Position numbers and translations under genes: made by a program. Below, in pieces: positions 38,945 through 64,000 of a stretch of DNA of 64,000 nucleotides. The notes under the pieces were generated by a model. That model ran no database searches. It worked only from the letters and a program-made list of their open reading frames with translations, and was not told the DNA's origin. Position 1 is the first letter of the stretch, and the number at the start of each line of letters is the position of its first letter. Source of the stretch: Arenicola marina (Eukaryota; Annelida; Polychaeta; Arenicolidae); contig OZ025263.1 of the NCBI GenBank assembly GCA_964019135.1, positions 35,194,133-35,258,132 on the forward strand, in the 5' to 3' direction.

Positions 38945-41900
38945 CTGGCAAAACGACAGAACGAAGAACGTGTTAATTAATTGTTAAGTAATTGTCGTCG
39001 ACGTACCGACACACCACGTCATTTACGCGTGGTATCGTGAGCGATTTTCACACTGCAGGGGCTGCCATTGGCCAGTAATGTCTAGTAATGTAGATCTCTA
39101 CCTCAGGACGAGGAATCTGCTATAGACTGTCTGTTTTACAATAACGAAATAAAGATGTTTAAAACAAGTAATCCAAGGGGATACGGGGAAGGGTGGATGA
39201 CAACTGATAAGGGGAAGGGGAAGAGGGTGGATGACAACTGATAAGGAGAAGGGGAAGAGGGTGGATGACAACTGATAAGGAGAAGGGGAAGAGGGTGGAT
39301 GACAACTGATAAGGGGAAGGGGAAGAGGGTGGATGACACCTGATAAGGAGAAGGGGAAGAGGGTGGATGACAACTGATAAGGGAAAGGGGAAGAGGGTGG
39401 ATGACACCTGATAAGGGGAAGGGGGAGAGGGTGGATGATAACTGATAAGGGAAAGGGGAAGAGGGTGGATGACAACTGATAAGGGGAAGGGGAAGAGGGT
39501 GGATGACAACTGATAAGGGAAAGGGGAAGAGGGTGGATGACAACTGATAAGGGGAAGGGGGAGAGGGTGGATGACAACTGATAAGGGGAAGGGGAAGAGG
39601 GTGGATGACACCTGATAAGGGGAAGAGGAAGAGGGTGGATGACACCTGATAAGGGGAAGGGGAAGAGGGTGGATGACAACTGATAAGGGGAAGGGGAAGA
39701 GGGTGGATGACAACTGATAAGGGGAAGGGGAAGAGGGTGGATGACAACTGATAAGGGGAAGGGGAAGAGGGTGGATGACAACTGATAAGGGGAAGGGGGA
39801 GAGGGTGGATGACACCTGATAAGGGGAAGGGGGAGAGGGTGGATGACAACTGATAAGGGGAAGGGGAAGAGGGTGGATGACACCTGATAAGGAGAAGGGG
39901 AAGAGGGTGGATGACAACTGATAAGGGAAAGGGGAAGAGGGTGGATGACACCTGATAAGGGGAAGGGGGAGAGGGTGGATGACAACTGATAAGGGGAAGG
40001 GGAAGAGGGTGGATGACAACTGATAAGGGAAAGGGGAAGAGGGTGGATGACACCTGATAAGGGGAAGGGGGGGAGGGTGGATGACAACTGATAAGAGAAA
40101 AGAGGGTGGATGACAGCTGATAAGGGGAAGGGGAAGAGGGTGGATGACAACTGATAAGGAGGAGAGGGTGGAGGACAACTGATAAGGGGAAGGGGGAGAG
40201 GGTGGATGACAACTGATAAGGGGAAGGGGAAGAGGGTGGATGACACCTGATAAGGGGAAGGGGAAGAGGGTGGATGACAACTGATAAGGGAAAGAGGGAG
40301 GATGACAACTGATAAGGGGAAGGGGAAGAGGGTGGATGACACCTGATAAGGGGAAGGGGAAGAGGGTGGATGACACCTGATAAGAGGAAGGGGGAGAGGG
40401 TGGATGACAACTGATAAGGGGAAGGGGAAGAGAGTGGATGACAACTGATAAGGGGGAGAGGGTGGATGACAACTGGTAAGGGGAAGGGGAAGAGGGTGGA
40501 TGACAACTGATAAGGGGGAGGGGAAGAGGGTGGATGACAACTGATAAGGGGAAGGGGAAGAGGGTGGATGACAACTGATAAGGGGAAGGGGAAGAGGGTG
40601 GATGACAACTGATAAGGGGGAGGGGAAGAGGGTGGATGACAACTGATAAGGGGAAGGGGAAGAGGGTGGATGACAACTGATAAGGGGAAGGGGAAGAGGG
40701 TGGATGACAACTGATAAGGGGGAGGGGAAGAGGGTGGATGACAACTGATAAGGGGAAGGGGAAGAGGGTGGATGACAACTGATAAGGGGGAGGGGAAGAG
40801 GGTGGATGACAACTGATAAGGGGAAGGGGAAGAGGGTGGATGACAACTGATAAGGGGAAGGGGGAGAGGGTGGATGACACCTGATAAGGGGAAGGGGGAG
40901 AGGGTGGATGACAACTGATAAGGGGAAGGGGAAGAGGGTGGATGACACCTGATAAGGAGAAGGGGAAGAGGGTGGATGACAACTGATAAGGGAAAGGGGA
41001 AGAGGGTGGATGACACCTGATAAGGGGAAGGGGGAGAGGGTGGATGACAACTGATAAGGGGAAGGGGAAGAGGGTGGATGACAACTGATAAGGGAAAGGG
41101 GAAGAGGGTGGATGACACCTGATAAGGGGAAGGGGGAGAGGGTGGATGACAACTGATAAGAGAAAAGAGGGTGGATGACAGCTGATAAGGGGAAGGGGAA
41201 GAGGGTGGATGACAACTGATAAGGGGAAGGGGAAGAGGGTGGATGACAACTGATAAGGGGAAGGGGAAGAGGGTGGAGGACAACTGATAAGGGGAAGGGG
41301 AAGAGGGTGGATGACACCTGATAAGGGGAAGGGGAAGAGGGTGGATGACAACTGATAAGGGGAAGGGGAAGAGGGTGGAGGACAACTGATAAGGGGAAGG
41401 GGAAGAGGGTGGATGACAACTGATAAGGGGAAGGGGAAGAGGGTGGAGGACAACTGATAAGGGGAAGGGGAAGAGGGTGGATGACACCTGATAAGGGGAA
41501 GGGGAAGAGGGTGGATGACAACTGATAAGGGAAAGAGGGAGGATGACAACTGGTAAGGGAAAGGGGAAGAGGGTGGATGACACCTGATAAGGGGAAGGGG
41601 AAGAGGGTGGATGACACCTGATAAGGGGAAGGGGAAGAGGGTGGATGACAACTGATAAGGGGAAGGGGAAGAGGGTGGATGACACCTGATAAGGGGAAGG
41701 GGAAGAGGGTGGATGACAACTGATAAGGGAAAGAGGGAGGATGACAACTGGTAAGGGAAAGGGGAAGAGGGTGGATGACACCTGATAAGGGGAAGGGGAA
41801 GAGGGTGGATGACACCTGATAAGGGGAAGGGGGAGAGGGTGGATGACAACTGATAAGGGGAAGGGGAAGAGAGTGGATGACAACTGATAAGGGGAAGGGG

Positions 41901-44900
41901 AAGAGGGTGGATGACAACTGATAAGGGGGAGGGGAAGAGGGTGGATGACAACTGATAAGGGGAAGGGGAAGAGGGTGGATGACAACTGATAAGGGGGAGA
42001 GGGTGGATGACAACTGGTAAGGGGAAGGGGAAGAGGGTGGATGACAACTGATAAGGGGAAGGGGAAGAGGGTGGATGACAACTGATAAGGGGGAGGGGAA
42101 GAGGGTGGATGACAACTGATAAGGGGAAGGGGAAGAGGGTGGATGACAACTGATAAGGGGAAGGGGAAGAGGGTGGATGACAACTGATAAGGGGAAGGGA
42201 AACAGGGTGGATGACACCTGATAAGGGGAAGGGGAAGAGGGTGGATGACAACTGATAAGGGGAAGGGGAAGAGGGTGGATGACAACTGGTAAGGGGAAGG
42301 GGAAGAGGGTGGATGACAACTGATAAGGGGAAGGGGGAGAGGGTGGATGACACCTGATAAGGGGAAGGGGGAGAGGGTGGATGACAACTGATAAGAGAAA
42401 AGAGGGTGGATGACAACTGATAAGGGGAAGGGGGAGAGGGTGGATGACAACTGATAAGGGGAAGGGGAAGAGGGTGGATGACACCTGATAAGAGGAAGGG
42501 GAAGAGGGTGGATGACAACTGATAAGGGGAAGGGGAAGAGGGTGGATGACACCTGATAAGGGGAAGGGGAAGAGGGTGGATGACAACTGATAAGGGGGAG
42601 GGGAAGAGGGTGGATGACAACTGATAAGGGGGAGAGGGTGGATGACAACTGGTAAGGGGAAGGGGAAGAGGGTGGATGACAACTGATAAGGGGAAGGGGA
42701 AGAGAGTGGATGACAACTGATAAGGGGAAGGGGAAGAGGGTGGATGACAACTGATAAGGGGAAGGGGAAGAGGGTGGATGACAACTGATAAGGGGAAGGG
42801 AAAGAGGGTGGATGACACCTGATAAGGGGAAGGGGAAGAGGGTGGATGACAACTGATAAGGGGAAGGGGAAGAGGGTGGATGACAACTGGTAAGGGGAAG
42901 GGGAAGAGGGTGGATGACAACTGATAAGGGGAAGGGGGAGAGGGTGGATGACACCTGATAAGGGGAAGGGGGAGAGGGTGGATGACAACTGATAAGGGGG
43001 AAAGGGTGGATGACAACTGATAAGGGGAAGGGGAAGAGGGTGGATGACACCTGATAAGGGAAAGGGGAAGAGGGTGGATGACAACTGATAAGGGGAAGGG
43101 GGAGAGGGTGGATGACAACTGATAAGAGAAAAGAGGGTGGATGACAACTGATAAGGGGAAGGGGGAGAGGGTGGATGACAACTGATAAGGGGAAGGGGAA
43201 GAGGGTGGATGACACCTGATAAGAGGAAGGGGAAGAGGGTGGATGACAACTGATAAGGGGAAGGGGAAGAGGGTGGATGACAACTGATAAGGAGAAGGGG
43301 AAGAGGGTGGATGACAACTGATAAGGGGAAGGGGAAGAGGGTGGATGACACCTGATAAGAGGAAGGGGAAGAGGGTGGATGACAACTGATAAGGGGAAGG
43401 GGAAGAGGGTGGATGACAACTGATAAGGGGAAGGGGGAGAGGGTGGATGACAACTGATAAGGGGAAGGGGGAGAGGGTGGATGACAACTGATAAGGGGAA
43501 GGGGAAGAGGGTGGATGACACCTGATAAGAGGAAGGGGAAGAGGGTGGATGACAACTGATAAGGGGAAGGGGAAGAGGGTGGATGACACCTGATAAGGGG
43601 GAGAGGGTGGATGACAACTGATAAGGGGAAGGGGTAGAGGGTGGATGACAACTGATAAGAGGAAGGGGAAGAGGGTGGATGACAACTGATAAGGGGAAGG
43701 GGAAGAGGGTGGATGAAACTGATAAGAGAAAAGAGGGTGGATGACAACTGATAAGGGGAAGGGGGAGAGGGTGGATGACAACTGATAAGGGGAAGGGGGA
43801 GAGGGTGGATGACACCTGATAAGGGGAAGGGGAAGAGGGTGGATGACAACTGATAAGGGGAAGGGGGAGAGGGTGGATGACAACTGATAAGGGGAAGGGG
43901 GAGAGGGTGGATGACAACTGATAAGGGGAAGGGGAGAGGGTGGATGACAACTGATAAGGGGGAGAGGGTGGATGACAACTGATAAGGGGAAGGGGGAGAG
44001 GGTGGATGACAACTGATAAGGGGAAGGGCAAGAGGGTGGATGACAACTGATAAGGGGAAGGGGGAGAGGGTGGACGACAACTGATAAGGGGGAGAGGGTG
44101 GATGACAACTGATAAGGGGAGAGGGTGGATGACAACTGATAAGGGGAAGGGGAAGAGGGTGGATGACAAATGATAAGGGGAAGGGGAAGAGGGTGGATGA
44201 CAAATGATAAGGGGGAGAGGGTGGATGATAACTGATAAGGGGAAGGGGAAGAGGGTGGATGAAACTGATAAGAGAAAAGAGGGTGGATGACAACTGATAA
44301 GGGGAAGGGGGAGAGGGTGGATGACAACTGATAAGGGGAAGGGGGAGAGGGTGGATGACAACTGATAAGGGGAAGGGGAGAGGGCGGATGACAACTGATA
44401 AGGGGAAGGGGAAGAGGGTGGATGACAAATGATAAGGGGGAGAGGGTGGATGATAACTGATAAGGGGAAGGGGGAGAGGGTGAATGACAACTGATAAGGG
44501 GAAGGGGAAGAGGGTGGATGACAACTGATAAGGGGAAGGGGGAGAGGGTGGATGACAACTGATAAGGGGAAGGGGAAGAGGGTGGATGACAACTGATAAG
44601 GGGAAGGGGGAGAGGGTGGATGACAACTGATAAGGGGGAGAGGGTGGATGACAACTGATAAGGGGAGAGGGTGGATGACAACTGATAAGGGGAAGGGGAA
44701 GAGGGTGGATGACAAATGATAAGGGGGAGAGGGTGGATGATAACTGATAAGGGGAAGGGGGAGAGGGTGGATGACAACTGATAAGGGGAAGGGGAAGAGG
44801 GTGGATGACAACTGATAGGGGGAAGGGGAAGAGGGTGGATGACAACTGATAAGGGGGAGAGGGTGGATGACAACTGATAAGGGGAAGGGGAAGAGGGTGG

Positions 44901-47900
44901 ATGACAACTGATAAGGGGAAGGGGAAGAGGGTGGATGACAAATGATAAGGGGGAGAGGGTGGATGATAACTGATAAGGGGAAGGGGGAGAGGGTGGATGA
45001 CAACTGATAAGGGGAAGGGGAAGAGGGTGGATGACAACTGATAAGGGGAAGGGGGAGAGGGTGGATGACAACTGGTAAGGGGAAGGGGAAGGATGACAAC
45101 TGATAAGGTGAAGGGGGAGAGGGTGGATAACAACTGATAAGGGGAAGGGGAAGAGGGTGGATGACACCTGATAAGGGGAAGGGGAAGGGGAAGAGGGTGG
45201 ATAACAACTGATAAGGGGAAGGGGAAGAGGGTGGATGACACCTGATAAGGGGAAGGGGAAGAGGGTGGATGACAACTGATAAGGGGAAGGGGAAGAGGGT
45301 GGATGACAACTGATAAGGGGAAGGGGAAGAGGGTGGATGACAACTGATAAGGGGAAGGGGAAGAGGGGGGATGACAACTGATAAGAGGAAGGGGGAGAGG
45401 GTGGATGACAACTGATAAGGGGAAGGGGGAGAGGGTGGATGACAACTGATAAGTGGAAGGGGAAGAGGGTGGATGACAACTGATAAGTGGAAGGGGGAGA
45501 GGGTGGATGACAACTGATAAGGGGAAGGGGAAGAGGGTGGATGACACCTGATAAGGGGAAGGGGAAGAGGGGGGATGACAACTGATAAGAGGAAGGGGAA
45601 GAGGGTGGATGACAACTGATAAGGGGAAGGGGGAGAGGGTGGATGACAACTGATAAGTGGAAGGGGAAGAGGGTGGATGACAACTGATAAGGGGAAGGGG
45701 AAGAGGGTGGATGACAACTGATAAGGGGAAGGGGAAGAGGGTGGATGACACCTGATAAGGGGAAGGGGGAGAGGGTGGATGACAACTGATAAGTGGAAGG
45801 GGAAGAGGGTGGATGACAACTGATAAGGGGAAGGGGAAGAGGGTGGATGACAACTGATAAGGGGAAGGGGAAGAGGGTGGATGACAACTGATAAGGGGAA
45901 GGGGAAGAGGGTGGATGATAACTGGTAAGGGGAAGGGGAAGAGGGTGGATGACAACTGGTAAGGGGAAGGGGAAGAGGGTGGATGACAACTGATAAGTGG
46001 AAGGGGAAGAGGGTGGATGACAACTGGTAAGGGGAAGGGGAAGAGGGGGGATGACAACTGATAAGTGGAAGGGGAAGAGGGTGGATGACAACTGGTAAGG
46101 GGAAGGGGAAGAGGGGGGATGACAACTGATAAGAGGAAGGGGAAGAGGGTGGATGACAACTGATAAGGGGAAGGGGAAGAGGGTGGATGACAACTGATAA
46201 GGGCAAGGGGGAGAGGGTGGATGACAACTGATAAGTGGAAGGGGAAGAGGGTGGATGACAACTGATAAGGGGAAGGGGAAGAGGGTGGATGACAACTGAT
46301 AAGGGCAAGGGGGAGAGGGTGGATGACAACTGATAAGTGGAAGGGGAAGAGGGTGGATGACAACTGATAAGGGGAAGGGGAAGAGGGTGGATGACAACTG
46401 ATAAGGGCAAGGGGGAGAGGGTGGATGACAACTGATAAGGGGAAGGGGAAGAGGGTGGATGATAACTGATAAGGGGAAGGGGAAGAGGGTGGATGACAAC
46501 TGATAAGTGGAAGGGGAAGAGGGTGGATGACAACTGGTAAGGGGAAGGGGAAGAGGGTGGATGACACCTGATAAGGGGAAGGGGGAGAGGGTGGATGACA
46601 ACTGATAAGGGAAAGGGGAAGAGGGTGGATGACAACTGATAAGGGGAAGGGGAAGAGGGTGGATGACAACTGATAAGGGGAAGGGAAAAGAGGGTGGATG
46701 ACACCTGATAAGGGGGGGGGGGAAGAAGGCGGTGCACTGTTAGTACCAGTGCCGATGTCACCTCGCCCACTACATACCCGTAAACAGATCGAAGGCCTCA
46801 TCAGGCAGCTTGCTGAAGACGTCATTGAGGTCGTGCTCGGCCAGGAGCTGGTTGGCATGCTCCGTGTCTATCGGCAAGTCCAGGTTCTTCTCGATGGTGC
46901 CTGCAAGGACAAAGAAGGCGGCGTCACTCCACAGGCTGCAGGGGCTGCCATTGACCAGTACTTGGACTTAAGTCAGTAACTTAATCACGTCTTGCGGCTA
47001 ATATGGGCACAATGCGCCTTCATAAGTGTGGAGAAAAATATATATATACACCCGTAACTACAAAGCGTAGCCGTGATTTCTTTATAAATGTCATGTTATC
47101 ATAGATAATTGAGGATTCAAACACACACAACCCACATAACCACGTGGGGCTGGGGGGAGGGAGACTAAGACAAGGGACCCACATAACCACGTGGGGCTGG
47201 GGGGAGGGAGACTATGACAAGGGACCCACACAACCACGTGGGGCTGGGGGGAGGGAGACTAAGACGACTAGGGACCCACATAACCACGTGGGGCTGGAGG
47301 GAGGGAGACTAAGACAAGGGACCCACATAACCACGTGGGGCTGGGGGGAGGGAGACTATGACAAGGGACCCACACAACCACGTGGGGCTGGGGGGAGGGA
47401 GACTAAGACGACTAGGGACCCACATAACCACGTGGGGCTGGAGGGAGGGAGACTAAGACAAGGGACCCACACAACCACGTGGGGCTGGGGGGAGGGAGAC
47501 TAAGACGAGGGACCCACATAACCACGTGGGGCTGGGGGGAGGGAGACTAAGACAAGGGACCCACATAACCACGTGGGGCTGGGGGGAGGGAGACTAAGAC
47601 AAGGGACCCACATAACCACGTGGGGCTGGGGGGAGGGAGACTCAAGACAAGGGACCCACATAACCACGTGGGGCTGGGGGGAGGGAGACTAAGACAAGGG
47701 ACCCACATAACCACGTGGGGCTGGGGGGAGGGAGACTAAGACAAGGGACCCACACAACCACGTGGGGCTGGGGGGAAGGAGACTAAGACAAGGGACCCAC
47801 ATAACCACGTGGGGCTGGGGGGAGGGAGACTAAGACAAGGGACCCACACAACCACGTGGGGCTGGGGAGAGGGAGACTAAGACAAGGGACCCACACAACC

Positions 47901-50900
47901 ACGTGGGGCTGGAGGGAGGGAGAATAAGACAAGGGACCCACATAACCACGTGGGGCTGGGGGGAGGGAGACTAAGACAAGGGACCCACATAACCACGTGG
48001 GGCTGGGGGGAGGGAGACTCAAGACAAGGGACCCACATAACCACGTGGGGCTGGGGGGAAGGAGACTAAGACAAGGGACCCACATAACCACGTGGGGCTG
48101 GAGGGAGGGAGACTAAGACAAGGGACCCACATAACCACGTGGGGCTGGGGGGGGGGGAGACTAAGACAAGGGACCCACATAACCACGTGGGGCTGGGGGG
48201 AGGAAGACTAAGGCAAGGGACCCACATAACCACGTGGGGCTGGGGGGAGGGAGACTAAGACAAGGGACCCACATAACCACGTGGGGCTGGGGGGAGGGAG
48301 ACTAAGACAAGGGACCCACACAACCACGTGGGGCTGGGGGGAGGGAGACTAAGACGAGGGACCCACATAACCACGTGGGGCTGGGGGGAGGGAGACTAAG
48401 ACAAGGGACCCACACAACCACGTGGGGCTGGGGGGAGGGAGACTAAGACGAGGGACCCACATAACCACGTGGGGCTGGGGGGAGGGAGACTAAGACAAGG
48501 GACCCACACAACCACGTGGGGCTGGAGGGAGGGAGAATAAGACAAGGGACCCACATAACCACGTGGGGCTGGGGGGAGGGAGACTAAGACAAGGGACCCA
48601 CATAACCACGTGGGGCTGGGGGGAGGGCGACTAAGACAAGGGACCCACATAACCACGTGGGGCTGGGGGGAGGGAGACTAAGACGAGGGACCCACATAAC
48701 CACGTGGGGCTGGGGGGAGGGACACTAAGACAAGGGACCCACATAACCACGTGGGGCTGGGGGGAGGGAGACTAAGACAAGGGACCCACACAACCACGTG
48801 GGGCTGGAGGGAGGGAGAATAAGACAAGGGACCCACATAACCACGTGGGGCTGGGGGGAGGGAGACTAAGACAAGGGACCCACATAACCACGTGGGGCTG
48901 GGGGGAGGGAGACTCAAGACAAGGGACCCACATAACCACGTGGGGCTGGGGGGAGGGAGACTAAGACAAGGGACCCACATAACCACGTGAGGCTGGAGGG
49001 AGGGAGACTAAGACAAGGGACCCACACAACCACGTGGGGCTGGGGGGAGGGAGACTAAGACAAGGAACCCACACAACCACGTGGGGCTGGAGGGAGGGAG
49101 ACTAAGACAATGGACCCACACAACCACGTGGGGCTGGGGGGAGGGAGACTAAGACAAGGGACCCACACAACCACGTGGGGCTGGGGGGAGGGAGACTAAG
49201 ACAAGGGACCCACACAACCACGTGGGGCTGGGGGGAAGGAGACTAAGACAAGGGACCCACAAAACCACGTTGGGCTGGGGGGAGGGAGACTAAGACAAGG
49301 GACCCACACAACCACGTGGGGCTGGGGAGAGGGAGACTAAGACAAGGGACCCACACAACCACGTGGGGCTGGGGAGAGGGAGACTAAGACAAGGGACCCA
49401 CACAACCACGTGGGGCTGGGGGGAGAGAGAATAAGACAAGGGACCCACACAACCACGTGCGGAGGGAGACTTACCGGGGGAGAAGGATTCCTCGAACTCG
49501 GCGCTCAGCTCGTCGGTTGGCAGCTGGTGCCTCTGCTCTGGCTGGTTCCTGTGCTCCAGCGGCCGCCTGTGTGAGGACACGCCGGGCTGCGGCTCCGACG
49601 TGCAGACAGCGCGCCTCGAGGACGACACCCGGGTCAGCGGCTCCACCGGGCAGGCGGTTCTCCCAGTAGAGGGCGCCCCGGCTGGCAGCTCGGCCGGGCC
49701 CACTGTGGGGGCAGGGTGAGCGCGGGGCAGCAGGGCGGCCTCATCTCCAGAGTCCGTCATCATGTCGCCAGCCGACCCCTCCAGACCTGGAAACACGTAC
49801 ACACCATGTAAGACGGCTGTGCCATGCTTCACAACAGCACACCATGTAAGACCGCTGTGCCATGCTTCACAACAGCACACCATGTAAGACGGCTGTGCCA
49901 TGCTTCACAACAGCACACCATGTAAGACGGCTGTGCCATGCTTCACAACAGCACACCATGTAAGACGGCTGTGCCATGCTTCACAACAGCACACCATGTA
50001 AGACGGCTGTGCCATGCTTCACAACAGCACACCATGTAAGACGGCTGTGCCATGCTTCACAACAGCACACCATGTAAGACGGCTGTGCCATGCTTCACAA
50101 CAGCACACCATGTAAGACGGCTGTGCCATGCTTCACAACAGCACACCATGTAAGACGGCTGTGCCATGCTTCACAACAGCACACCATGTAAGACGGCTGT
50201 GCCATGTTTCACAACAGCACACCATGTAAGACGGCTGTGCCATGCTTCACAACAGCACACCATGTAAGACGGCTGTGCCATGCTTCACAACAGCACACCA
50301 TGTAAGACGGCTGTGCCATGCTTCACAACAGCACACCATGTAAGACGGCTGTGCCATGCTTCACAACAGCACACCATGTAAGACGGCTGTGCCATGCTTC
50401 ACAACAGCACACCATGTAAGACGGCTGTGCCATGCTTCACAACAGCACACCATGTAAGACGGCTGTGCCATGCTTCACAACAGCACACCATGTAAGACGG
50501 CTGTGCCATGCTTCACAACAGCACACCATGTAAGACGGCTGTGCCATGCTTCACAACAGCTTCACTCATTACCACATTACATGGAAGATGGACACCAGAC
50601 TTAACAAACCAACTTGGCTTCCCTTCCCCTTATATATATATGCCTTCACCCTATATATATATGGCTTCACCCTATATATATATGCCCCACCCTATATATA
50701 TATGCACCACCCTATATATATATATACACCACCCTATATATATATATGCACCACCCTATATATATATGCTCCACCCTATATATATATGCACCACCCTATA
50801 TATATATGCACCACCCTATATATATATGCCTTCGCAGCTGTCTCACACTACCCCCCCCCCCACCCCCACCAGTTAGCCCCACATCCCCCCATTATAACAC

Positions 50901-51739
50901 ACTCGGGAACCTCAAAGTGCAATACCATTCGTTCCCTCTAGTGCAATAGAGTAAGGAACGTGATCTCACTTTAATAAGTCTTCCATTAAAAGATAGATAT
51001 TTGTTTATTTACTTATTATTAGTTACTTGCAAGATCAATAATACAACATACACGCATCACAAATAACACAAGTATACAACTCACCCAACCATCATGGCTT
51101 ATAACACAAGTATACAACTCCCCCAGCCATCATGGCTTATAACACAAGTATACAACTCCCCCAGCCATCATGGCTTATAACACAAGTATACAACTCACCC
51201 AGCCATCATGGCTTATAACACAAGTATACAACTCCCCCAGCCATCATGGCTTATAACACAAGTATACAACTCACCCAGCCATCATGGCTTATAACACAAG
51301 TATACAACTCCCCCAGCCATCATGGCTTATAAGCGCTTCAAATTGATTACATAATATTTATCATTTCTAATCTTACTCCGTCTATTATTACTATTGATTA
51401 ATAGACCTTGACTACGGAACTGAGTCGTTATTCAGACACAGTTCTAAGTAGTCCGTATGTGTTGCCCTAGTAACGGGCCTCTCCGGCAGTGTACTCACCC
51501 TGAGAGTCCGGCTCCCCGGGGCCGTTCTCCTGGGCGGACTGGGGGTCCTCTGGGTCCGCCTCGGCCGCGGACTCCCCGGCGGACAGCGCGTGGGGCCGAC
51601 AGGGGGAGGGGGCTCGCGCCTTCTTCCTCTGGTTCTTCTTCTTCTTGCCCTTCTTGGGCGGCCGCGTCAGCGCCGAGGGCTTCGTCTTCTTGCGCGGCTT
51701 CTTTGGCTTGCTGGCCTCCAGGTTCCTCTGGTAGTTCTC
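37005..51739 (-). CDS. Large probable nuclear regulatory protein, 3' part of the gene (four exons, 5' end outside the window)
   Basis: Four exons on the minus strand, 51739-51499, 49786-49475, 46900-46778 and 38944-37005, each have GT..AG borders, and their phases agree (each junction rebuilds a Gly codon). Together they encode at least 871 residues: a Lys-rich basic segment, a Pro/Ser/Glu linker, an acidic-hydrophobic segment (LNDVFSKLPDEAFDLF), an amphipathic helix (EAFEDVLAEVSQALTSAKE), a Ser/Gln/Leu repeat and a long His/Gly/Gln/Pro/Ala-rich tail ending at TGA 37005-37007. The composition suggests a nuclear transcription or chromatin protein with activation-type segments. I do not recognise the family; comparison from memory with KMT2C and KMT2A gave no match. 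Upstream exons lie beyond 64000. Confidence 0.8.
37905..37975 (-). repeat. In-frame 12-bp repeat encoding SGHV, with CACGTG sites
   Basis: About five 12-bp units (CACGTGACCAGA type) encode Gly-His-Val-Ser/Pro repeats. Each contains the palindrome CACGTG. Confidence 0.75.
38527..38838 (-). repeat. In-frame coding repeat of about 24 bp (Ser/Gln/Leu)
   Basis: Inside the last exon, 12- and 24-bp units on the plus strand such as AGCTGTGAAGAGAG encode QLSSQLSQ-type octads, with Ser/Pro and Gln/His exchanges. The reading frame is kept throughout and units differ mostly in one or two bases, as for a translated repeat that expands by slippage. Confidence 0.85.
39053..39077. repeat. 25-bp motif shared between two introns (copy 1)
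   Basis: CTGCAGGGGCTGCCATTG followed by GCCAGTA matches 46936-46960 at 24 of 25 positions. This copy lies 109 bp upstream of the acceptor of the last exon in the gene's sense. Confidence 0.7.
39177..46712 (-). repeat. 34-bp intronic satellite, about 222 copies; each unit is a pyrimidine tract plus CAG
   Basis: In the gene's sense the 34-bp unit reads TTGTCATCCACCCTCT, TCCCCTTCCCCTTATCAG. Units with G instead of T after CAG (CAG/GTGTCATC) are frequent. Shorter units of about 22-28 bp are scattered between 40080 and 45120. The plus strand is almost pure purine (GGGGAAGGGGAAGAGGG), so the array is prone to triplex, R-loop or G-quadruplex structures. It occupies nearly all of the 7833-bp intron between the last two exons. 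No unit contains a minus-strand stop, so all three frames stay open for about 2500 codons; these are not genes. Confidence 0.97.
46778..46900 (-). CDS. Minus-strand gene, short acidic-hydrophobic exon
   Basis: 123 nt. The acceptor is CTTTGTCCTTGCAG/GCACC and the donor ACGG/GTATGTAG. It encodes TIEKNLDLPIDTEHANQLL and AEHDLNDVFSKLPDEAFDLF. Alternating acidic and bulky hydrophobic residues are typical of short activation or protein-binding motifs. Of the four exons this is the best probe for finding the family. Confidence 0.82.
46936..46960. repeat. 25-bp motif shared between two introns (copy 2)
   Basis: Same motif and same orientation as 39053-39077, here 36 bp upstream of the acceptor of the 123-nt exon. 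Confidence 0.7.
46961..47127. other. Short unique intron segment
   Basis: About 170 bp between the shared 25-bp motif and the 47-bp satellite, AT-rich, with TATATATA near 47040. Nothing else was seen. Confidence 0.4.
47128..49458. repeat. 47-bp intronic satellite with one CACGTG per unit, about 50 copies
   Basis: The unit reads ACCCACATAACCACGTGGGG, CTGGGGGGAGGGAGACTAAG, ACAAGGG. Each has a central CCACGTGG palindrome (E-box core CACGTG). ATAACC and ACAACC are the main alternatives. The GGAGGGAGACT part is also present next to the real donor at 49461-49474 (GGAGGGAGACTTACC), so the array may have grown from intron sequence at the donor; in the satellite the donor GT is changed. Confidence 0.96.
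49475..49786 (-). CDS. Minus-strand gene, Pro/Ser/Arg-rich exon
   Basis: 312 nt. The acceptor is GTACGTGTTTCCAG/GTCTGG and the donor CCCCCG/GTAAGTCT. It encodes LEGSAGDMMTDSGDEAALL, a Pro/Ser/Arg-rich linker, and ends LSAEFEESFSPG. The 38-bp satellite begins about 10 bp upstream of the acceptor, so the branch point must lie in or very near repeat DNA. The 47-bp satellite starts about 15 bp after the donor. Confidence 0.8.
49796..50556. repeat. 38-bp intronic satellite, 20 copies
   Basis: The unit reads GTAAGACGGCTGTGCCATGC, TTCACAACAGCACACCAT. Copies are almost identical (one GCTTCAC to GTTTCAC change near 50205). The array abuts the acceptor of the 312-nt exon. Confidence 0.96.
50628..50831. 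repeat. 20-bp AT-rich repeat (CACCCTATATATATATGC), about 10 copies
   Basis: Units of 19-24 bp with a variable TATATA core and a CACC or TTCACC spacer. The tyrosine/isoleucine-rich open frames here are by-products. Confidence 0.92.
50832..51063. other. Unique intron segment
   Basis: About 230 bp with a C-run near 50852. No feature was recognised. Confidence 0.4.
51064..51332. repeat. 38-bp intronic minisatellite, 7 copies
   Basis: The unit reads AACACAAGTATACAACTCCC, CCAGCCATCATGGCTTAT, with CTCACCCAGCC or CTCCCCCAGCC alternatives. It has the same length as, but unrelated sequence to, the 38-bp array at 49796-50556. Confidence 0.93.
51499..51739 (-). CDS. Minus-strand gene, lysine-rich exon
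   Basis: 241 nt (80 codons plus one base). The acceptor is TTACCGTGTGACAG/GAGAAC and the donor CTCAGG/GTGAGTAC. The product begins ENYQRNLEASKPKKPRKK, continues KKGKKKKNQRKKARAPSP (a likely nuclear localisation signal and nucleic-acid-binding patch) and turns acidic near the end (AEADPEDPQSAQENG). The exon body is rich in AAGAAG runs, which resemble purine-rich splicing enhancers. Its first 35 nt and acceptor are the source of, or share origin with, the neighbouring 109/111-bp satellite. Confidence 0.82.
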
Positions 51740-54700
51740 CTGTCACACGGTAACACAACGCTCACGTCCGGGTTTATAAACATTAAGGCAATCTACCCAG
51801 TGACAATAGCTTCGGCTTGATGGCCTCCAGGTTCCTCTGGTAGTTCTCCTGTCACACGGTAACACAACGCTCACGTCCGGGTTTATAAACATTACGGCAA
51901 TCTACCCAGTGACAATAGCTTCGGCTTGCTGGCCTCCAGGTTCCTCTGGTAGTTCTCCTGTCACACGGTAACACAACGCTCACGTCCGGGTTTATAAACA
52001 TTAAGGCAATCTACCCAGTGACAATAGCTTCGGCTTGCTGGCCTCCAGGTTCCTCTGGTAGTTCTCCTGTCACACGGTAACACAACGCTCACGTCCGGGT
52101 TTATAAACATTAAGGCAATCTACCCAGTGACAATAGCTTCGGCTTGCTGGCCTCCAGGTTCCTCTGGTAGTTCTCCTGTCACACGGTAACACAACGCTCA
52201 CGTCCGGGTTTATAAACATTAAGGCAATCTACCCAGTGACAATAGCTTCGGCTTGCTGGCCTCCAGGTTCCTCTGGTAGTTCTCCTGTCACACGGTAACA
52301 CAACGCTCACGTCCGGGTTTATAAACATTAAGGCAATCTACCCCCAGTGACAATAGCTTCGGCTTGCTGGCCTCCAGGTTCCTCTGGTAGTTCTCCTGTC
52401 ACACGGTAACACAACGCTCACGTCCGGGTTTATAAACATTAAGGCAATCTACCCAGTGACAATAGCTTCGGCTTGCTGGCCTCCAGGTTCCTCTGGTAGT
52501 TCTCCTGTCACACGGTAACACAACGCTCACGTCCGGGTTTATAAACATTAAGGCAATCTACCCAGTGACAATAGCTTCGGCTTGCTGGCCTCCAGGTTCC
52601 TCTGGTAGTTCTCCTGTCACACGGTAACACAACGCTCACGTCCGGGTTTATAAACATTAAGGCAATCTACCCCCAGTGACAATAGCTTCGGCTTGCTGGC
52701 CTCCAGGTTCCTCTGGTAGTTCTCCTGTCACACGGTAACACAACGCTCACGTCCGGGTTTATAAACATTAAGGCCATCTACCCAGTGACAATAGCTTCGG
52801 CTTGCTGGCCTCCAGGTTCCTCTGGTAGTTCTCCTGTCACACGGTAACACAACGCTCACGTCCGGGTTTATAAACATTAAGGCAATCTACCCCCAGTGAC
52901 AATAGCTTCGGCTTGCTGGCCTCCAGGTTCCTCTGGTAGTTCTCCTGTCACACGGTAACACAACGCTCACGTCCGGGTTTATAAACATTAAGGCCATCTA
53001 CCCAGTGACAATAGCTTCGGCTTGCTGGCCTCCAGGTTCCTCTGGTAGTTCTCCTGTCACACGGTAACACAACGCTCACGTCCGGGTTTATAAACATTAA
53101 GGCAATCTACCCCCAGTGACAATAGCTTCGGCTTGCTGGCCTCCAGGTTCCTCTGGTAGTTCTCCTGTCACACGGTAACACAACGCTCACGTCCGGGTTT
53201 ATAAACATTAAGGCAATCTACCCCCAGTGACAATAGCTTCGGCTTGCTGGCCTCCAGGTTCCTCTGGTAGTTTTCCTGTCACACGGTAACACAACGCTCA
53301 CGTCCGGGTTTATAAACATTAAGGCAATCTACCCAGTGACAATAGCTTCGGCTTGCTCGCCTCCAGGTTCCTCTGGTAGTTCTCCTGTCACACGGTAACA
53401 CAACGCTCACGTCCGGGTTTATAAACATTAAGGCAATCTACCCAGTGACAATAGCTTCGGCTTGCTGGCCTCCAGGTTCCTCTGGTAGTTCTCCTGTCAC
53501 ACGGTAACACAACGCTCACGTCCGGGTTTATAAACATTAAGGCAATCTACCCCCAGTGACAATAGCTTCGGCTTGCTGGCCTCCAGGTTCCTCTGGTAGT
53601 TCTCCTGTCACACGGTAACACAACGCTCACGTCCGGGTTTATAAACATTAAGGCAATCTACCCAGTGACAATAGCTTCGGCTTGCTGGCCTCCAGGTTCC
53701 TCTGGTAGTTCTCCTGTCACACGGTAACACAACGCTCACGTCCGGGTTTATAAACATTAAGGCAATCTACCCAGTGACAATAGCTTCGGCTTGCTGGCCT
53801 CCAGGTTCCTCTGGTAGTTATCCTGTCACACGGTAACACAACGCTCACGTCCGGGTTTATAAACATTAAGGCAATCTACCCCCAGTGACAATAGCTTCGG
53901 CTTGCTGGCCTCCAGGTTCCTCTGGTAGTTCTCCTGTCACACGGTAACACAACGCTCACGTCCGGGTTTATAAACATTAAGGCAATCTACCCAGTGACAA
54001 TAGCTTCGGCTTGCTGGCCTCCAGGTTCCTCTGGTAGTTCTCCTGTCACACGGTAACACAACGCTCACGTCCGGGTTTATAAACATAAAGGCAATCTACC
54101 CAGTGACAATAGCTTCGGCTTGCTGGCCTCCAGGTTCCTCTGGTAGTTCTCCTGTCACACGGTAACACAACGCTCACGTCCGGGTTTATAAACATTAAGG
54201 CAATCTACCCAGTGACAATAGCTTCGGCTTGCTGGCCTCCAGGTTCCTCTGGTAGTTCTCCTGTCACACGGTAACACAACGCTCACGTCCAGGTTTATAA
54301 ACATTAAGGCAATATACCCAGTGACAATAGCTTCGGCTTGCTGGCCTCCAGGTTCCTCTGGTAGTTCTCCTGTCACACGGTAACACAACGCTCACGTCCA
54401 GGTTTATAAACATTAAGGCAATCTACCCAGTGACAATAGCTTCGGCTTGCTGGCCTCTAGGTTCCTCTGGTAGTTCTCCTGTCACACGGTAACACAACGC
54501 TCACGTCCGGGTTTATAAACATTAAGGCAATCTACCCAGTGACAATAGCTTCGGCTTGCTGGCCTCCAGGTTCCTCTGGTAGTTCTCCTGTCACACGGTA
54601 ACACAACGCTCACGTCCGGGTTTATAAACAGTAAGGCAATCTACCCAGTGACAATAGCTTCGGCTTGCTGGCCTCCAGGTTCCTCTGGTAGTTCTCCTGT

Positions 54701-57700
54701 CACACGGTAACACAACGCTCACGTCCGGGTTTATAAACATTAAGGCAATCTACCCAGTGACAATAGCTTCGGCTTGCTGACCTCCAGGTTCCTCTGGTAG
54801 TTCTCCTGTCACACGGTAACACAACGCTCACGTCCGGGTTTATACACATTAAGGCAATCTACCCAGTGACAATAGCTTCGGCTTGATGGCCTCCAGGTTC
54901 CTCTGGTAGTTCTCCTGTCACACGGTAACACAACGCTCACGTCCGGGTTTATAAACATTACGGCAATCTACCCAGTGACAATAGCTTCGGCTTGCTGGCC
55001 TCCAGGTTCCTCTGGTAGTTCTCCTGTCACACGGTAACACAACGCTCACGTCCGGGTTTATAAACATTAAGGCAATCTACCCAGTGACAATAGCTTCGGC
55101 TTGCTGACCTCCAGGTTCCTCTGGTAGTTCTCCTGTCACACGGTAACACAACGCTCACGTCCGGGTTTATAAACATTAAGGCAATCTACCCAGTGACAAT
55201 AGCTTCGGCTTGCTGGCCTCCAGGTTCCTCTGGCAGTTCTCCTGTCACACGGTAACACAACGCTCACGTCCGGGTTTATAAACATTGAGGCAATCTACCC
55301 AGTGACAATAGCTTCGGCTTGCTGGCCTCCAGGTTCCTCTGGTAGTTCTCCTGTCACACGGTAACACAACGCTCACGTCCGGGTTTATAAACATTAAGGC
55401 AATCTACCCAGTGACAATAGCTTCGGCTTGCTGGCCTCCAGGTTCCTCTGGTAGTTCTCCTGTCACACGGTAACACAACGCTCACGTCCGGGTTTATAAA
55501 CAGTAAGGCAATCTACCCAGTGACAATAGCTTCGGCTTGCTGGCCTCCAGGTTCCTCTGGTAGTTCTCCTGTCACACGGTAACACAACGCTCACGTCCGG
55601 GTTTATAAACATTAAGGCAATCTACCCCCAGTGACAATAGCTTCGGCTTGCTGACCTCCAGGTTCCTCTGGTAGTTCTCCTGTCACACGGTAACACAACG
55701 CTCACGTCCGGGTTTATAAACATTAAGGCAATCTACCCAGTGACAATAGCTTCGGCTTGATGGCCTCCAGGTTCCTCTGGTAGTTCTCCTGTCACACGGT
55801 AACACAACGCTCACGTCCGGGTCTATAAACATTACGGCAATCTACCCAGTGACAATAGCTTCGGCTTGCTGGCCTCCAGGTTCCTCTGGTAGTTCTCCTG
55901 TCACACGGTAACACAACGCTCACGTCCGGGTTTATAAACATTAAGGCAATCTACCCAGTGACAATAGCTTCGGCTTGCTGACCTCCAGGTTCCTCTGGTA
56001 GTTCTCCTGTCACACGGTAACACAACGCTCACGTCCGGGTTTATAAACATTAAGGCAATCTACCCAGTGACAATAGCTTCGGCTTGCTGGCCTCCAGGTT
56101 CCTCTGGCAGTTCTCCTGTCACACGGTAACACAACGCTCACGTCCGGGTTTATAAACATTGAGGCAATCTACCCAGTGACAATAGCTTCGGCTTGCTGGC
56201 CTCCAGGTTCCTCTGGTAGTTCTCCTGTCACACGGTAACACAACGCTCACGTCCGGGTTTATAAACATTAAGGCAATCTACCCAGTGACAATAGCTTCGG
56301 CTTGCTGGCATCCAGGTTCCTCTGGTAGTTCTCCGGTCACACGGTAACACAACGCTCACGTCCGGGTTTATAAACATTAAGGCAATCTACCCCCAGTGAC
56401 AATAGCTTCGGCTTGCTGACCTCCAGCTTCCTCTGGTAGTTCTCCTGTCACACGGTAACACAACGCTCACGTCCGGGTTTATAAACATTAAGGCAATCTA
56501 CCCCCAGTGACAATAGCTTCGGCTTGCTGGCCTCCAGGTTCCTCTGGTAGTTCTCCTGTCACACGGTAACACAACGCTCACGTCCGGGTTTATAAACATT
56601 GAGGCAATCTACCCAGTGACAATAGCTTCGGCTTGCTGGCCTCCAGGTTCCTCTGGTAGTTCTCCTGTCACACGGTAACACAACGCTCACGTCCGGGTTC
56701 ATAAACATTAAGGCAATCTACCCAGTGACAATAGCTTCGGCTTGCTGGCCTCCAGGTTCCTCTGGTAGTTCTCCTGTCACACGGTAACACAACGCTCACG
56801 TCCGGGTTTATAAACATTAAGGCAATCTACCCAGTGACAATAGCTTCGGCTTGCTGGCCTCTAGGTTCCTCTGGTAGTTCTCCTGTCACACGGTAACACA
56901 ACGCTCACGTCCGGGTTTATAAACATTAAGGCAATCTACCCAGTGACAATAGCTTCGGCTTGCTGGCCTCCAGGTTCCTCTGGTAGTTCTCCTGTCACAC
57001 GGTAACACAACGCTCATGTCCGGGTTTATAAACATTAAGGCAATCTACCCAGTGACAATAGCTTCGGCTTGCTGGCCTCCAGGTTCCTCTGGTAGTTCTC
57101 CTGTCACACGGTAACACAACGCTCACGTCCAGGTTTATAAACATTAAGGCAATCTACCCAGTGACAATAGCTTCGGCTTGCTGGCCTCCAGGTTCCTCTG
57201 GTAGTTCTCCTGTCACACGGTAACACAACGCTCACGTCCGGGTTTATAAACATTAAGGCAATCTACCCAGTGACAATAGCTTCGGCTTGCTGGCCTCCAG
57301 GTTCCTCTGGTAGTTCTCCTGTCACACGGTAAAACAACGCTCACGTCCGGGTTTATAAACATTAAGGCCATCTACCCAGTGACAATAGCTTCGGCTTGCT
57401 GGCCTCCAGGTTCCTCTGGTAGTTCTCCTGTCACACGGTAACACAACGCTCACGTCCGGGTTTATAAACAATAAGGCAATCTACCCAGTGACAATAGCTT
57501 CGGCTTGCTGGCCTCCAGGTTCCTCTGGTAGTTCTCCTGTCACACGGTAACACAACGCTCACGTCCGGGTTTATAAACATTAAGGCAATCTACCCAGTGA
57601 CAATAGCTTCGGCTTGCTGACCTGTAGGTTCCTCTGGTAGTTCTCCTGTCACACGGTAACACAACGCTCACGTCCGGGTTTATAAACATTAAGGCAATCT

Positions 57701-60700
57701 ACCCAGTGACAATAGCTTCGGCTTGATGGCCTCCAGGTTCCTCTGGTAGTTCTCCTGTCACACGGTAACACAACGCTCACGTCCGGGTTTATAAACATTA
57801 CGGCAATCTACCCAGTGACAATAGCTTCGGCTTGCTGGCCTCCAGGTTCCTCTGGTAGTTCTCCTGTCACACGGTAACACAACGCTCACGTCCGGGTTTA
57901 TAAACATTAAGGCAATCTACCCAGTGACAATAGCTTCGGCTTGCTGACCTCCAGGTTCCTCTGGTAGTTCTCCTGTCACACGGTAACACAACGCTCACGT
58001 CCGGGTTTATAAACATTAAGGCAATCTACCCAGTGACAATAGCTTCGGCTTGCTGGCCTCCAGGTTCCTCTGGCAGTTCTCCTGTCACACGGTAACACAA
58101 CGCTCATGTCCGGGTTTATAAACATTAAGGCAATCTACCCAGTGACAATAGCTTCGGCTTGCTGGCCTCCAGGTTCCTCTGGTAGTTCTCCGGTCACACG
58201 GTAACACAACGCTCACGTCCAGGTTTATAAACATTAAGGCAATCTACCAAGTGACAATAGCTTCGGCTTGCTGGCCTCCAGGTTCCTCTCGTAGTTCTCC
58301 TGTCACACGGTAACACAACGCTCACGTCCGGGTTTATAAACATTAAGGCAATCTACCCAGTGACAATAGCTTCGGCTTGCTGGCCTCCAGGTTCCTCTGG
58401 TAGTTCTCCTGTCACACGGTAACACAACGCTCACGTCCGGGTTCATAAACATTAAGGCAATCTACCCAGTGACAATAGCTTCGGCTTGCTGGCCTTCAGG
58501 TTCCTCTGGTAGTTCTCCTGTCACACGGTAACACAACGCTCACGTCCGGGTTTATAAACATTAAGGCAATCTACCCAGTGACAATAGCTTCGGCTTGCTG
58601 GCCTCCAGGTTCCTCTGGCAGTTCTCCTGTCACACGGTAACACAACGCTCACGTCCGGGTTTATAAACATCAAGGCAATCTACCCAGTGACAATAGCTTC
58701 GGCTTGCTGGCCTCCAGGTTCCTCTGGTAGTTCTCCTGTCACACGGTAACACAACGCTCACGTCCGGGTTTATAAACATCAAGGCAATCTACCCAGTGAC
58801 AATAGCTTCGGCTTGCTGGCCTCCAGGTTCCTCTGGCAGTTCTCCTGTCACACGGTAACACAACGCTCACGTCCGGGTTTATAAACATTAAGGCAATCTA
58901 CCCAGTGACAATAGCTTCGGCTTGCTGGCCTCCAGGTTCCTCTCGTAGTTCTCCTGTCACACGGTAACACAACGCTCACGTCCGGGTTTATAAACATTAC
59001 GGCAATCTACCCCCAGTGACAATAGCTTCGGCTTGCTGGCCTCCAGGTTCCTCTGGTAGTTCTCCTGTCACACGGTAACACAACGCTCACGTCCGGGTTT
59101 ATAAACATTACGGCAATCTACCCAGTGACAATAGCTTCGGCTTGCTGGCCTCCAGGTTCCTCTGGTAGTTCTCCTGTCACACGGTAACACAACGCTCATG
59201 TCCGGGTTTATAAACATTAAGGCAATCTACCCAGTGACAATAGCTTCGGCTTGCTGGCCTCCAGGTTCCTCTGGTAGTTCTCCTGTCACACGGTAACACA
59301 ACGCTCACGTCCAGGTTTATAAACATTAAGGCAATCTACCCAGTGACAATAGCTTCGGCTTGCTGGCCTCCAGGTTCCTCTGGTAGTTCTCCTGTCACAC
59401 GGTAACACAACGCTCACGTCCGGGTTTATAAACATTAAGGCAATCTACCCAGTGACAATAGCTTCGGCTTGCTGGCCTCCAGGTTCCTCTGGTAGTTCTC
59501 CTGTCACACGGTAAAACAACGCTCACGTCCGGGTTTATAAACATTAAGGCCATCTACCCAGTGACAATAGCTTCGGCTTGCTGGCCTCCAGGTTCCTCTG
59601 GTAGTTCTCCTGTCACACGGTAACACAACGCTCACGTCCGGGTTTATAAACATTAAGGCAATCTACCCAGTGACAATAGCTTCGGCTTGCTGGCATCCAG
59701 GTTCCTCTGGTAGTTCTCCGGTCACACGGTAACACAACGCTCACGTCCGGGTTTATAAACATTAAGGCAATCTACCCCCAGTGACAATAGCTTCGGCTTG
59801 CTGACCTCCAGCTTCCTCTGGTAGTTCTCCTGTCACACGGTAACACAACGCTCACGTCCGGGTTTATAAACATTAAGGCAATCTACCCCCAGTGACCATA
59901 GCTTCGGCTTGCTGGCCTCCAGGTTCCTCTGGTAGTTCTCCGGTCACACGGTAACACAACGCTCACGTCCGGGTTGATAAACATTAGGGCAATATACCCC
60001 CAGTGACAATAGCTTCGGCTTGCTGGCCTCCAGGTTCCTCTGGTAGTTCTCCTGTCACACGGTAACACAACGCTCACGTCCGGGTTTATAAACATTAAGG
60101 CAATCTACCCAGTGACAATAGCTTCGGCTTGCTGGCCTCCAGGTTCCTCTCGTAGTTCTCCTGTCACACGGTAACACAACGCTCACGTCCGGGTTTATAA
60201 ACATTAAGGCAATCTACCCAGTGACAATAGCTTCGGCTTGCTGGCCTCCAGGTTCCTCTGGCAGTTCTCCTGTCACACGGTAACACAACGCTCACGTCCG
60301 GGTTTATAAACATTAAGGCAATCTACCCAGTGACAATAGCTTCGGCTTGCTGGCCTCCAGGTTCCTCTGGTAGTTCTCCGGTCACACGGTAACACAACGC
60401 TCACGTCCGGGTTTATAAACATTAAGGCAATCTACCCAGTGACAATAGCTTCGGCTTGCTGGCCTCCAGGTTCCTCTGGTAGTTCTCCTGTCACACGGTA
60501 ACACAACGCTCACGTCCGGGTTTATAAACATTGAGGCAATCTACCCAGTGACAATAGCTTCGGCTTGATGGCCTCCAGGTTCCTCTGGTAGTTCTCCTGT
60601 CACACGGTAACACAACGCTCACGTCCGGGTTCATAAACATTAAGGCAATCTACCCAGTGACAATAGCTTCGGCTTGCTGGCCTCCAGGTTCCTCTGGTAG

Positions 60701-63700
60701 TTCTCCTGTCACACGGTAACACAACGCTCACGTCCGGGTTTATAAACATTAAGGCAATCTACCCAGTGACCATAGCTTCGGCTTGCTGGCCTCCAGGTTC
60801 CTCTGGTAGTTCTCCTGTCACACGGTAACACAACGCTCACGTCCGGGTTTATAAACATTACGGCAATCTACCCAGTGACAATAGCTTCGGCTTGCTGGCC
60901 TCCAGGTTCCTCTGGTAGTTCTCCTGTCACACGGTAACACAACGCTCACGTCCGGGTTTATAAACATTAAGGCAATCTACCCAGTGACAATAGCTTCGGC
61001 TTGCTGGCCTCCAGGTTCCTCTGGTAGTTCTCCTGTCACACGGTAACACAACGCTCACGTCCGGGTTTATAAACATTAAGGCAATCTACCCAGTGACAAT
61101 AGCTTCGGCTTGCTGGCCTCCAGGTTCCTCTGGTAGTTCTCCTGTCACACGGTAACACAACGCTCACGTCCGGGTTTATAAACATTGAGGCAATCTACCC
61201 AGTGACAATAGCTTCGGCTTGCTGGCCTCCAGGTTCCTCTGGTAGTTCTCCTGTCACACGGTAACACAACGCTCACGTCCGGGTTCATAAACATTAAGGC
61301 AATCTACCCAGTGACAATAGCTTCGGCTTGCTGGCCTCCAGGTTCCTCTGGTAGTTCTCCTGTCACACGGTAACACAACGCTCACGTCCGGGTTTATAAA
61401 CATTAAGGCAATCTACCCAGTGACAATAGCTTCGGCTTGCTGGCCTCCAGGTTCCTCTGGTAGTTCTCCTGTCACACGGTAACACAACGCTCACGTCCGG
61501 GTTTATAAACATTACGGCAATCTACCCAGTGACAATAGCTTCGGCTTGCTGGCCTCCAGGTTCCTCTGGTAGTTCTCCTGTCACACGGTAACACAACGCT
61601 CACGTCCGGGTTTATAAACATTAAGGCAATCTACCCAGTGACAATAGCTTCGGCTTGCTGGCCTCCAGGTTCCTCTAGTAGTTCTCCTGTCACACGGTAA
61701 CACAACGCTCACGTCCAGGTTTATAAACATTAAGGCAATCTACCCAGTGACAATAGCTTCGGCTTGCTGGCCTCCAGGTTCCTCTGGTAGTTCTCCTGTC
61801 ACACGGTAACACAACGCTCACGTCCGGGTTTATAAACATTAAGGCAATCTACCCAGTGACAATAGCTTCGGCTTGCTGGCCTCCAGGTTCCTCTGGTAGT
61901 TCTCCTGTCACACGGTAACACAACGCTCACGTCCAGGTTTATAAACATTAAGGCAATATACCCAGTGACAATAGCTTCGGCTTGCTGGCCTCCAGGTTCC
62001 TCTGGTAGTTCTCCTGTCACACGGTAACACAACGCTCACGTCCGGGTTTATAAACATTAAAGGCAATCTACCCAGTGACAATAGCTTCGGCTTGCTGGCC
62101 TCCAGGTTCCTCTGGTAGTTCTCCTGTCACACGGTAAAACAACGCTCACGTCCGGGTTTATAAACATTAAGGCCATCTACCCAGTGACAATAGCTTCGGC
62201 TTGCTGGCCTCCAGGTTCCTCTGGTAGTTCTCCTGTCACACGGTAACACAACGCTCACGTCCGGGTTTATAAACATTAAGGCAATCTACCCAGTGACAAT
62301 AGCTTCGGCTTGCTGGCATCCAGGTTCCTCTGGTAGTTCTCCGGTCACACGGTAACACAACGCTCACGTCCGGGTTTATAAACATTAAGGCAATCTACCC
62401 CCAGTGACAATAGCTTCGGCTTGCTGACCTCCAGCTTCCTCTGGTAGTTCTCCTGTCACACGGTAACACAACGCTCACGTCCGGGTTTATAAACATTAAG
62501 GCAATCTACCCCCAGTGACAATAGCTTCGGCTTGCTGGCCTCCAGGTTCCTCTGGTAGTTCTCCGGTCACACGGTAACACAACGCTCACGTCCGGGTTTA
62601 TAAACATTAGGGCAATATACCCCCAGTGACAATAGCTTCGGCTTGCTGGCCTCCAGGTTCCTCTGGTAGTTCTCCTGTCACACGGTAACACAACGCTCAC
62701 GTCCGGGTTTATAAACATTAAGGCAATCTACCCAGTGGCAATAGCTTCGGCTTGCTGGCCTCCAGGTTCCTCTGGTAGTTCTCCTGTCACACGGTAACAC
62801 AACGCTCACGTCCGGGTTTATAAACATTAAGGCAATCTACCCAGTGACAATAGCTTCGGCTTGCTGGCCTCCAGGTTCCTCTGGCAGTTTTCCTGTCACA
62901 CGGTAACACAACGCTCACGTCCGGGTTTATAAACATTAAGGCAATCTACCCAGTGACAATAGCTTCGGCTTGCTGGCCTCCAGGTTCCTCTGGTAGTTCT
63001 CCGGTCACACGGTAACACAACGCTCACGTCCGGGTTTATAAACATTAAGGCAATCTACCCAGTGACAATAGCTTCGGCTTGCTGGCCTCCAGGTTCCTCT
63101 GGTAGTTCTCCTGTCACACGGTAACACAACGCTCACGTCCGGGTTTATAAACATTGAGGCAATCTACCCAGTGACAATAGCTTCGGCTTGCTGGCCTCCA
63201 GGTTCCTCTGGTAGTTCTCCTGTCACACGGTAACACAACGCTCACGTCCGGGTTTATAAACATTAAGGCAATCTACCCAGTGACCATAGCTTCGGCTTGC
63301 TGGCCTCCAGGTTCCTCTGGAAGTTCTCCTGTCACACGGTAACACAACGCTCACGTCCGGGTTTATAAACATTAAGGCAATCTACCCAGTGACAATAGCT
63401 TCGGCTTGCTGGCCTCCAGGTTCCTCTGGTAGTTCTCCTGTCACACGGTAACACAACGCTCACGTCCGGGTTTATAAACATTAAGGCAATCTACCCAGTG
63501 ACAATAGCTTCGGCTTGCTGGCCTCCAGGTTCCTCTGGTAGTTCTCCTGTCACACGGTAACACAACGCTCACGTCCGGGTTTATAAACATTGAGGCAATC
63601 TACCCAGTGACAATAGCTTTGGCTTGCTGGCCTCCAGGTTCCTCTGGTAGTTCTCCTGTCACACGGTAACACAACGCTCACGTCCGGGTTTATAAACATT

Positions 63701-64000
63701 AAGGCAATCTACCCAGTGACCATAGCTTCGGCTTGCTGGCCTCCAGGTTCCTCTGGTAGTTCTCCTGTCACACGGTAACACAACGCTCACGTCCGGGTTT
63801 ATAAACATTACGGCAATCTACCCAGTGACAATAGCTTCGGCTTGCTGGCCTCCAGGTTCCTCTGGTAGTTCTCCTGTCACACGGTAACACAACGCTCATG
63901 TCCGGGTTTATAAACATTAAGGCAATCTACCCAGTGACAATAGCTTCGGCTTGCTGGCCTCCAGGTTCCTCTGGTAGTTCTCCGGTCACACGGTAACACA
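51705..64000 (-). repeat. 109/111-bp satellite built from a 3' splice site and the start of an exon, about 112 copies, open at the right edge
   Basis: In the gene's sense each unit contains GCGTTGTGTTACCGTGTGACAG (split here as GCGTTGTGTTACC, GTGTGACAG), then GAGAACTACCAGAGGAACCT and GGAGGCCAGCAAGCC, then CGAAGCTATTGTCACTGG and an intron-derived filler with TTTATAAACCCGGACGTGAG. The acceptor AG and the next 35 nt match the real exon border at 51739-51705 exactly in most copies. Units are 109 bp (CCCAGTG) or 111 bp (CCCCCAGTG). The rest of the exon, including its AAG-rich body and donor, is not repeated. At least nine units have CCGGTCAC for CCTGTCAC, which removes the acceptor AG. Identical variant blocks recur 2623 bp apart (59511 and 62134), about 24 units. 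Confidence 0.97.

Follow-up and report, generated by a model that had tools for sequence, protein, structure and literature searches.

A tandem repeat that carries a gene's own 3′ splice site in more than a hundred copies fills the end of the Arenicola marina sequence analyzed here (assembly GCA_964019135.1, contig OZ025263.1, positions 35,194,133–35,258,132). This 64,000-nt stretch is hereafter called the window, and coordinates are given within it. The array lies on the minus strand at 51701–64000, in the intron preceding exon A of a predicted gene. Its 109/111-bp unit comprises the intron end, the AG, and the first ~39 nt of exon A. Most probably, this is a minisatellite of the type described in amphioxus as a "mirage," which was duplicated, spread, and is tolerated through exon definition, without a dedicated function.

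The Repeat Unit Reproduces the Acceptor Junction of Exon A

Tandem Repeats Finder (TRF) assigned the array a period of 109 bp, with 112.5 copies and 97% matches. It covers more than 12 kb, all in the intron preceding exon A, and it reaches position 64000 and runs on past the window edge. A search with the unit recovered 112 acceptor-bearing units, the real junction counted in, spaced by 109 bp (93 spacings), 111 bp (17), or 110 bp (one). At the acceptor position, 104 units (the real one among them) read AG and the other eight CG. The window closes with an additional, truncated copy, which likewise has CG. With this copy counted in, 112 copies precede the real exon in transcript order, where about a hundred had been predicted, and 103 of them retain the AG. 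Many tandem units span the acceptor side of exon A, and most contain the splice signal. The average unit departs from the consensus in 1.3 alignment columns (98.8% identity), and 47 distinct units are found among 111.

The consensus unit is identical to the start of exon A through position +35. A G/A mismatch follows at +36, and then three matching bases. When the unit was locally aligned to the junction, the match ran from the intron through the AG to +39 and scored 153, compared with at most 22 for 500 shuffles. For the consensus, TRF, the unit search, and this alignment agree with the original prediction of a 109/111-bp unit bearing the intron end, the AG, and the first 35 nt of the exon. 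Substitutions are scattered over individual copies, with 15 distinct ones in the exon-like part. The unit at the boundary with exon A shows one difference in 79 aligned bases. The exon-like part of the unit is richer in GC (0.59) than the remainder (0.457). This step fits an origin of the repeat from the exon better than the capture of a satellite as an exon, although the argument is a modest one.

The variation among copies bears on how the array grew. Units 39–42 recur as a block at a lag of 20 units (score 21.3, versus a best score of 15.1 in 300 shuffles), which points to the exchange of multi-unit blocks. The number of substitutions per unit is 0.48 in the 27 units nearest the exon and 1.0, 1.3, and 1.1 in the other three quarters of the array. 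Over its initial 36 nt, the exon-like part has distinct substitutions distributed as at random (four synonymous, ten nonsynonymous, and one stop; p 0.50), with no sign of translation or coding constraint. By region, the 22 bases preceding the exon hold two distinct substitutions, the 38 exon-like positions 15, and the remaining 49 positions 18; these are too few independent events to argue for selection on the copies. The AG to CG change is one of 35 distinct substitutions and is present in 8 of 111 units. As other single changes reach nine units, this frequency gives no sign of selection on the decoys in either direction.

The Predicted Host Gene

Exons A to D, all on the minus strand, are predicted to join in a single frame of 871 codons followed by a stop, with three phase-1 introns having GT-AG ends. 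As a prediction, this gene is well supported. Exon A (51499–51739, 241 nt) is lysine rich, contains seven AAGAAG motifs, and ends at the donor G/GTGAGT. Its presumed acceptor AG occupies 51740–51741 and has a poor pyrimidine tract. The start of exon A must lie downstream of 51745–51743, because a TGA stands there in its frame. The unit search and the exon model both place the first exon base at 51739 and the last intron base at 51740, as first proposed. Exon B (49475–49786, 312 nt) is frame-consistent with exons A and C, and exon C (46778–46900) measures 123 nt. Exon D (37005–38944, 1,940 nt including the stop codon) contains coding-frame tandem repeats of 24/48 and 12/24 bp. These in-frame repeats, at 38566–38839 and 37909–37970, encode QLSSQLSQ-like and GHVSGHVS-like peptides, respectively.

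After a lysine-rich start, the predicted protein turns rich in Q, S, L, and H. A family search with pieces of this protein gave only weak matches below the cut-off in Pfam and NCBIfam, those to NCBIfam for exon D only. Sequence search of the PDB with the pieces likewise gave only weak matches, one of them at an E value of 0.41. An Rfam search returned nothing at the gathering score. An exact 29-base pattern of the unit had no match in viral and genome contig sets, as expected for a eukaryotic sequence, and this result is uninformative.

One Acceptor among about a Hundred of Equal Score

We scored splice sites with approximate human position frequencies, and all scores are therefore rough. Exon A has a weak acceptor (5.29). 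Among the 1,102 other upstream AGs in the window, 100 score equally and three score higher. The copies are potential decoy acceptors, as had been suggested. They lack two features of the real exon named in the original prediction, the AAGAAG-rich body and the strong donor: the seven AAGAAG motifs of exon A compare with none in a dimer of the consensus unit, and its donor GTGAGT scores 10.13, compared with at most 7.49 anywhere in the array. Because a strong donor and a purine-rich body are found in the real exon only, the downstream-most acceptor is presumably the one used, and exon definition is a sensible inference for the choice of site. Since the consensus matches the real junction from the intron to +35, the advantage of the real site would have to lie deeper in the exon, in the donor, or in its position in the transcript. 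If the gene is expressed, it would be a natural test of how one 3′ splice site is chosen among about 100 equal-scoring copies.

The unit also contains donor-like sites. The weak one predicted 52 nt after each AG (CTGG/GTAGAT) is present in the 109-bp consensus as TGG/GTAGAT, scoring 2.58; the variant GGG/GTAGAT (15 sites) scores 3.39. It is not the best donor-like site of the consensus unit, which is GAC/GTGAGC at +83 (5.56; 108 sites in the array). In nine copies a substitution creates a better site, GAG/GTCAGC in eight and CAG/GTCAGC in one (7.49). In the 109-bp unit, only 26 nt separate the +83 donor from the end of the next AG, which is too short for an intron. From the +52 donor of the 109-bp unit, or the +54 donor of the 111-bp unit, to the end of the next AG, the distance is 57 nt in both unit types, near the lower limit of intron length. 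The frame shift predicted for a mini-exon ending at this donor holds for the 109-bp consensus (52 nt). It does not hold for the 111-bp consensus, where the donor moves to +54 and the resulting 54-nt mini-exon would keep the frame. Both consensus mini-exons are open in all three frames. A recursive (ratchet) site is a 3′ splice site standing directly before a good 5′ splice site (AG/GTAAGT). The 109-bp unit does not have this arrangement, as it reads AG/GAG. When the reading is continued past the AG in phase 0, a stop appears in every one of the 111 full copies, and in 81 it comes after 21 codons. A copy used without further splicing would therefore lead to a premature stop.

Similarity to the Mirages of Amphioxus

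The original prediction knew of no described satellite of this kind. This does not hold, since the amphioxus mirages have the same anatomy in the excerpted text of two papers (PMC3087553, PMC3902484). The first of these applies the term, taken from Adh3, to tandem repeats across exon–intron boundaries, and reports that many mirage units hold AG/GT signals (PMC3087553). Among the globin genes it covers, BflGb6 shows a minisatellite-like tandem duplication of an intron end and exon start, and BflGb9 a duplicate of a 3′ exon boundary (PMC3087553). The link to the exon A array is one of anatomy alone: an intron end and an exon start in tandem. In BflGb6, the two haplotypes have six and three units of 150–160 bp that are 81–100% identical (PMC3087553), compared with 112 upstream copies of 109/111 bp and 98.8% identity here. 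The same excerpt states that Adh3 data and globin reverse transcription polymerase chain reaction suggest regular splicing (PMC3087553).

Other boundary-spanning repeats have been reported. Those of lancelet PGBD5, as presented in the relevant part of PMC3902484, comprise 60-bp units in two or seven copies and 108-bp units in three or six copies, depending on the assembly. Its authors compare them to mirages and also name Adh and TnC. They span a boundary like the exon A array, but as two to seven imperfect copies compared with 112. The minisatellite of IFI6 (6-16) likewise copies a splice signal, there a donor and in the exon A array an acceptor; it holds several splice donors, and two downstream units are reported to be used as such (Turri 1995, as cited in PMC4526556). 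Human internal tandem repeats also occur at exon–intron junctions. According to the excerpt of PMC2812944, they vary between primate-specific paralogs and may create novel introns or alternative splicing, and no array as large as that of exon A is described there. On anatomical grounds, the exon A array is of the described mirage kind. What stands out is its size: a boundary-spanning repeat would here have grown far past the two to seven units of the examples described for lancelet globin and PGBD5 in these sources.

Proposed History and Alternatives

The sequence directly shows the copies, the agreement between their consensus and the real site, the duplication of a block, and the noncoding-like variation, and these suggest the following history. 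The starting event would have been the tandem duplication of a stretch reaching from about −70 to +39 relative to the exon A acceptor. The copies would then have multiplied by unequal exchange, partly as multi-unit blocks. The downstream-most site would have remained in use via exon definition. Should a copy be used now and then, the message would in most cases meet an early stop and be degraded by nonsense-mediated decay, so that the array could be tolerated.

Several points weigh against this history. A global lag test of the order of variants remained within the shuffles (best value 0.10; shuffle mean 0.079, maximum 0.124, n = 200). The exon that would precede the array lies outside the window, and phase 0 at the 51739 junction is deduced from the frame of exon A. 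With a weak acceptor and 100 AGs of equal score, mis-splicing may not be rare. The GAC/GTGAGC site at +83, present 108 times, could define 83-nt pseudo-exons, and nine further copies have better-scoring donor-like sites of the GTCAGC type. In addition, the boundary units of BflGb6 are described as excluded from homogenization in the excerpt of PMC3087553, whereas the boundary unit of exon A is nearly identical to the consensus.

An active array is an unlikely alternative to the tolerated mirage-type minisatellite. In that case, in-frame mini-exons (54 nt, or 52 nt in triples) or a copy-number-dependent acceptor sink would let the length of the satellite set the isoforms or the output of the gene. 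Of the two forms, the sink survives better, while still improbable. It supposes that poison acceptors lower or regulate gene output in proportion to copy number. The 100 equal-scoring AGs transcribed ahead of the real one would provide such acceptors, and the phase-0 stop in all 111 full copies would provide the poison. Against this, the AG is kept in 103 of the 112 upstream copies, and no signal of selection on the AG to CG change is seen.

The use of copies as exons is very improbable, and the cascade suggested in the original prediction gained no support from this analysis. The 52- or 54-nt mini-exons, from the AG to G/GTAGAT, would be included singly (54 nt) or in threes (52 nt) to remain in frame and would add a variable repeat peptide. 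Their openness in three frames would permit this, as would the 57-nt gap, which is close to the minimum length of an intron. However, the donors are weak (2.58 and 3.39), and the exon-like part is without coding constraint. The excerpted account of the published mirages also has their authors reporting undisturbed regular splicing (PMC3087553).

An assembly artefact, in copy number or in placement beside exon A, is just as hard to credit: long arrays of 98.8% identical units assemble poorly and one globin mirage was seemingly aberrantly assembled in a genome draft, as stated in the excerpt of PMC3087553, but 47 distinct units among 111 show block structure, the junction copy continues into a long open exon, and a wrong copy number would leave the kind of repeat unaltered.

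Tandem Arrays in the Other Introns

The other introns of the gene also contain arrays, all considered on the minus strand. A 38-bp array follows the exon A donor (51063–51332) and has three TGG/GTGAGT sites, which are strong donor-like sequences (8.62, versus 10.13 for the real donor). A second 38-bp array (49800–50560) stops at −14 of the exon B acceptor. Within the A–B intron, the real sites are not outscored by any other AG or GT. A 47-bp array (47130–49459), with unit homology from +4 of the exon B donor, has 49 acceptor-like sites scoring above 8; none in that intron beats the exon C acceptor (12.27). In the C–D intron, a 34-bp array (39175–46715) has 221 acceptor-like sites above 5, of which 208 exceed 8, and 46 of the 235 AGs of the intron, the real one included, outscore the exon D acceptor (9.77). 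Forty of the 221 AGs scoring above 5 read CAG/GTGTCA, a juxtaposition of AG and GT with a weak donor (3.92). Of the four introns, two carry a high decoy load: that preceding exon A and the C–D intron.

Among seven junctions, one lies inside an array, two are at 13 and 15 bp from one, and four at 62–186 bp. Arrays are not closer to junctions than expected by chance, as two of the six junctions outside arrays are within 16 bp of one (p 0.23, background 0.153). Homology between a junction and the neighboring unit exceeded 500 shuffles in three of eight pairs: the exon A acceptor, the exon B acceptor (to −14), and the exon B donor (from +4). It remained within the 500 shuffles in the other five.

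About 65% of the whole window (1–64000) consists of tandem arrays with many different units. This estimate and the junction distances rely on 21 array intervals merged by hand from 56 TRF rows, with a few short rows omitted. At 14666–14843, an integrase-like frame that we take to be Gypsy-like (its Pfam matches are weak and below the cut-off) contains about 100 bp closely resembling the 55-bp minisatellite of 12202–13827. A 35-bp direct repeat of host-frame sequence stands on either side of this stretch, which looks like a satellite fragment inserted with target duplication.
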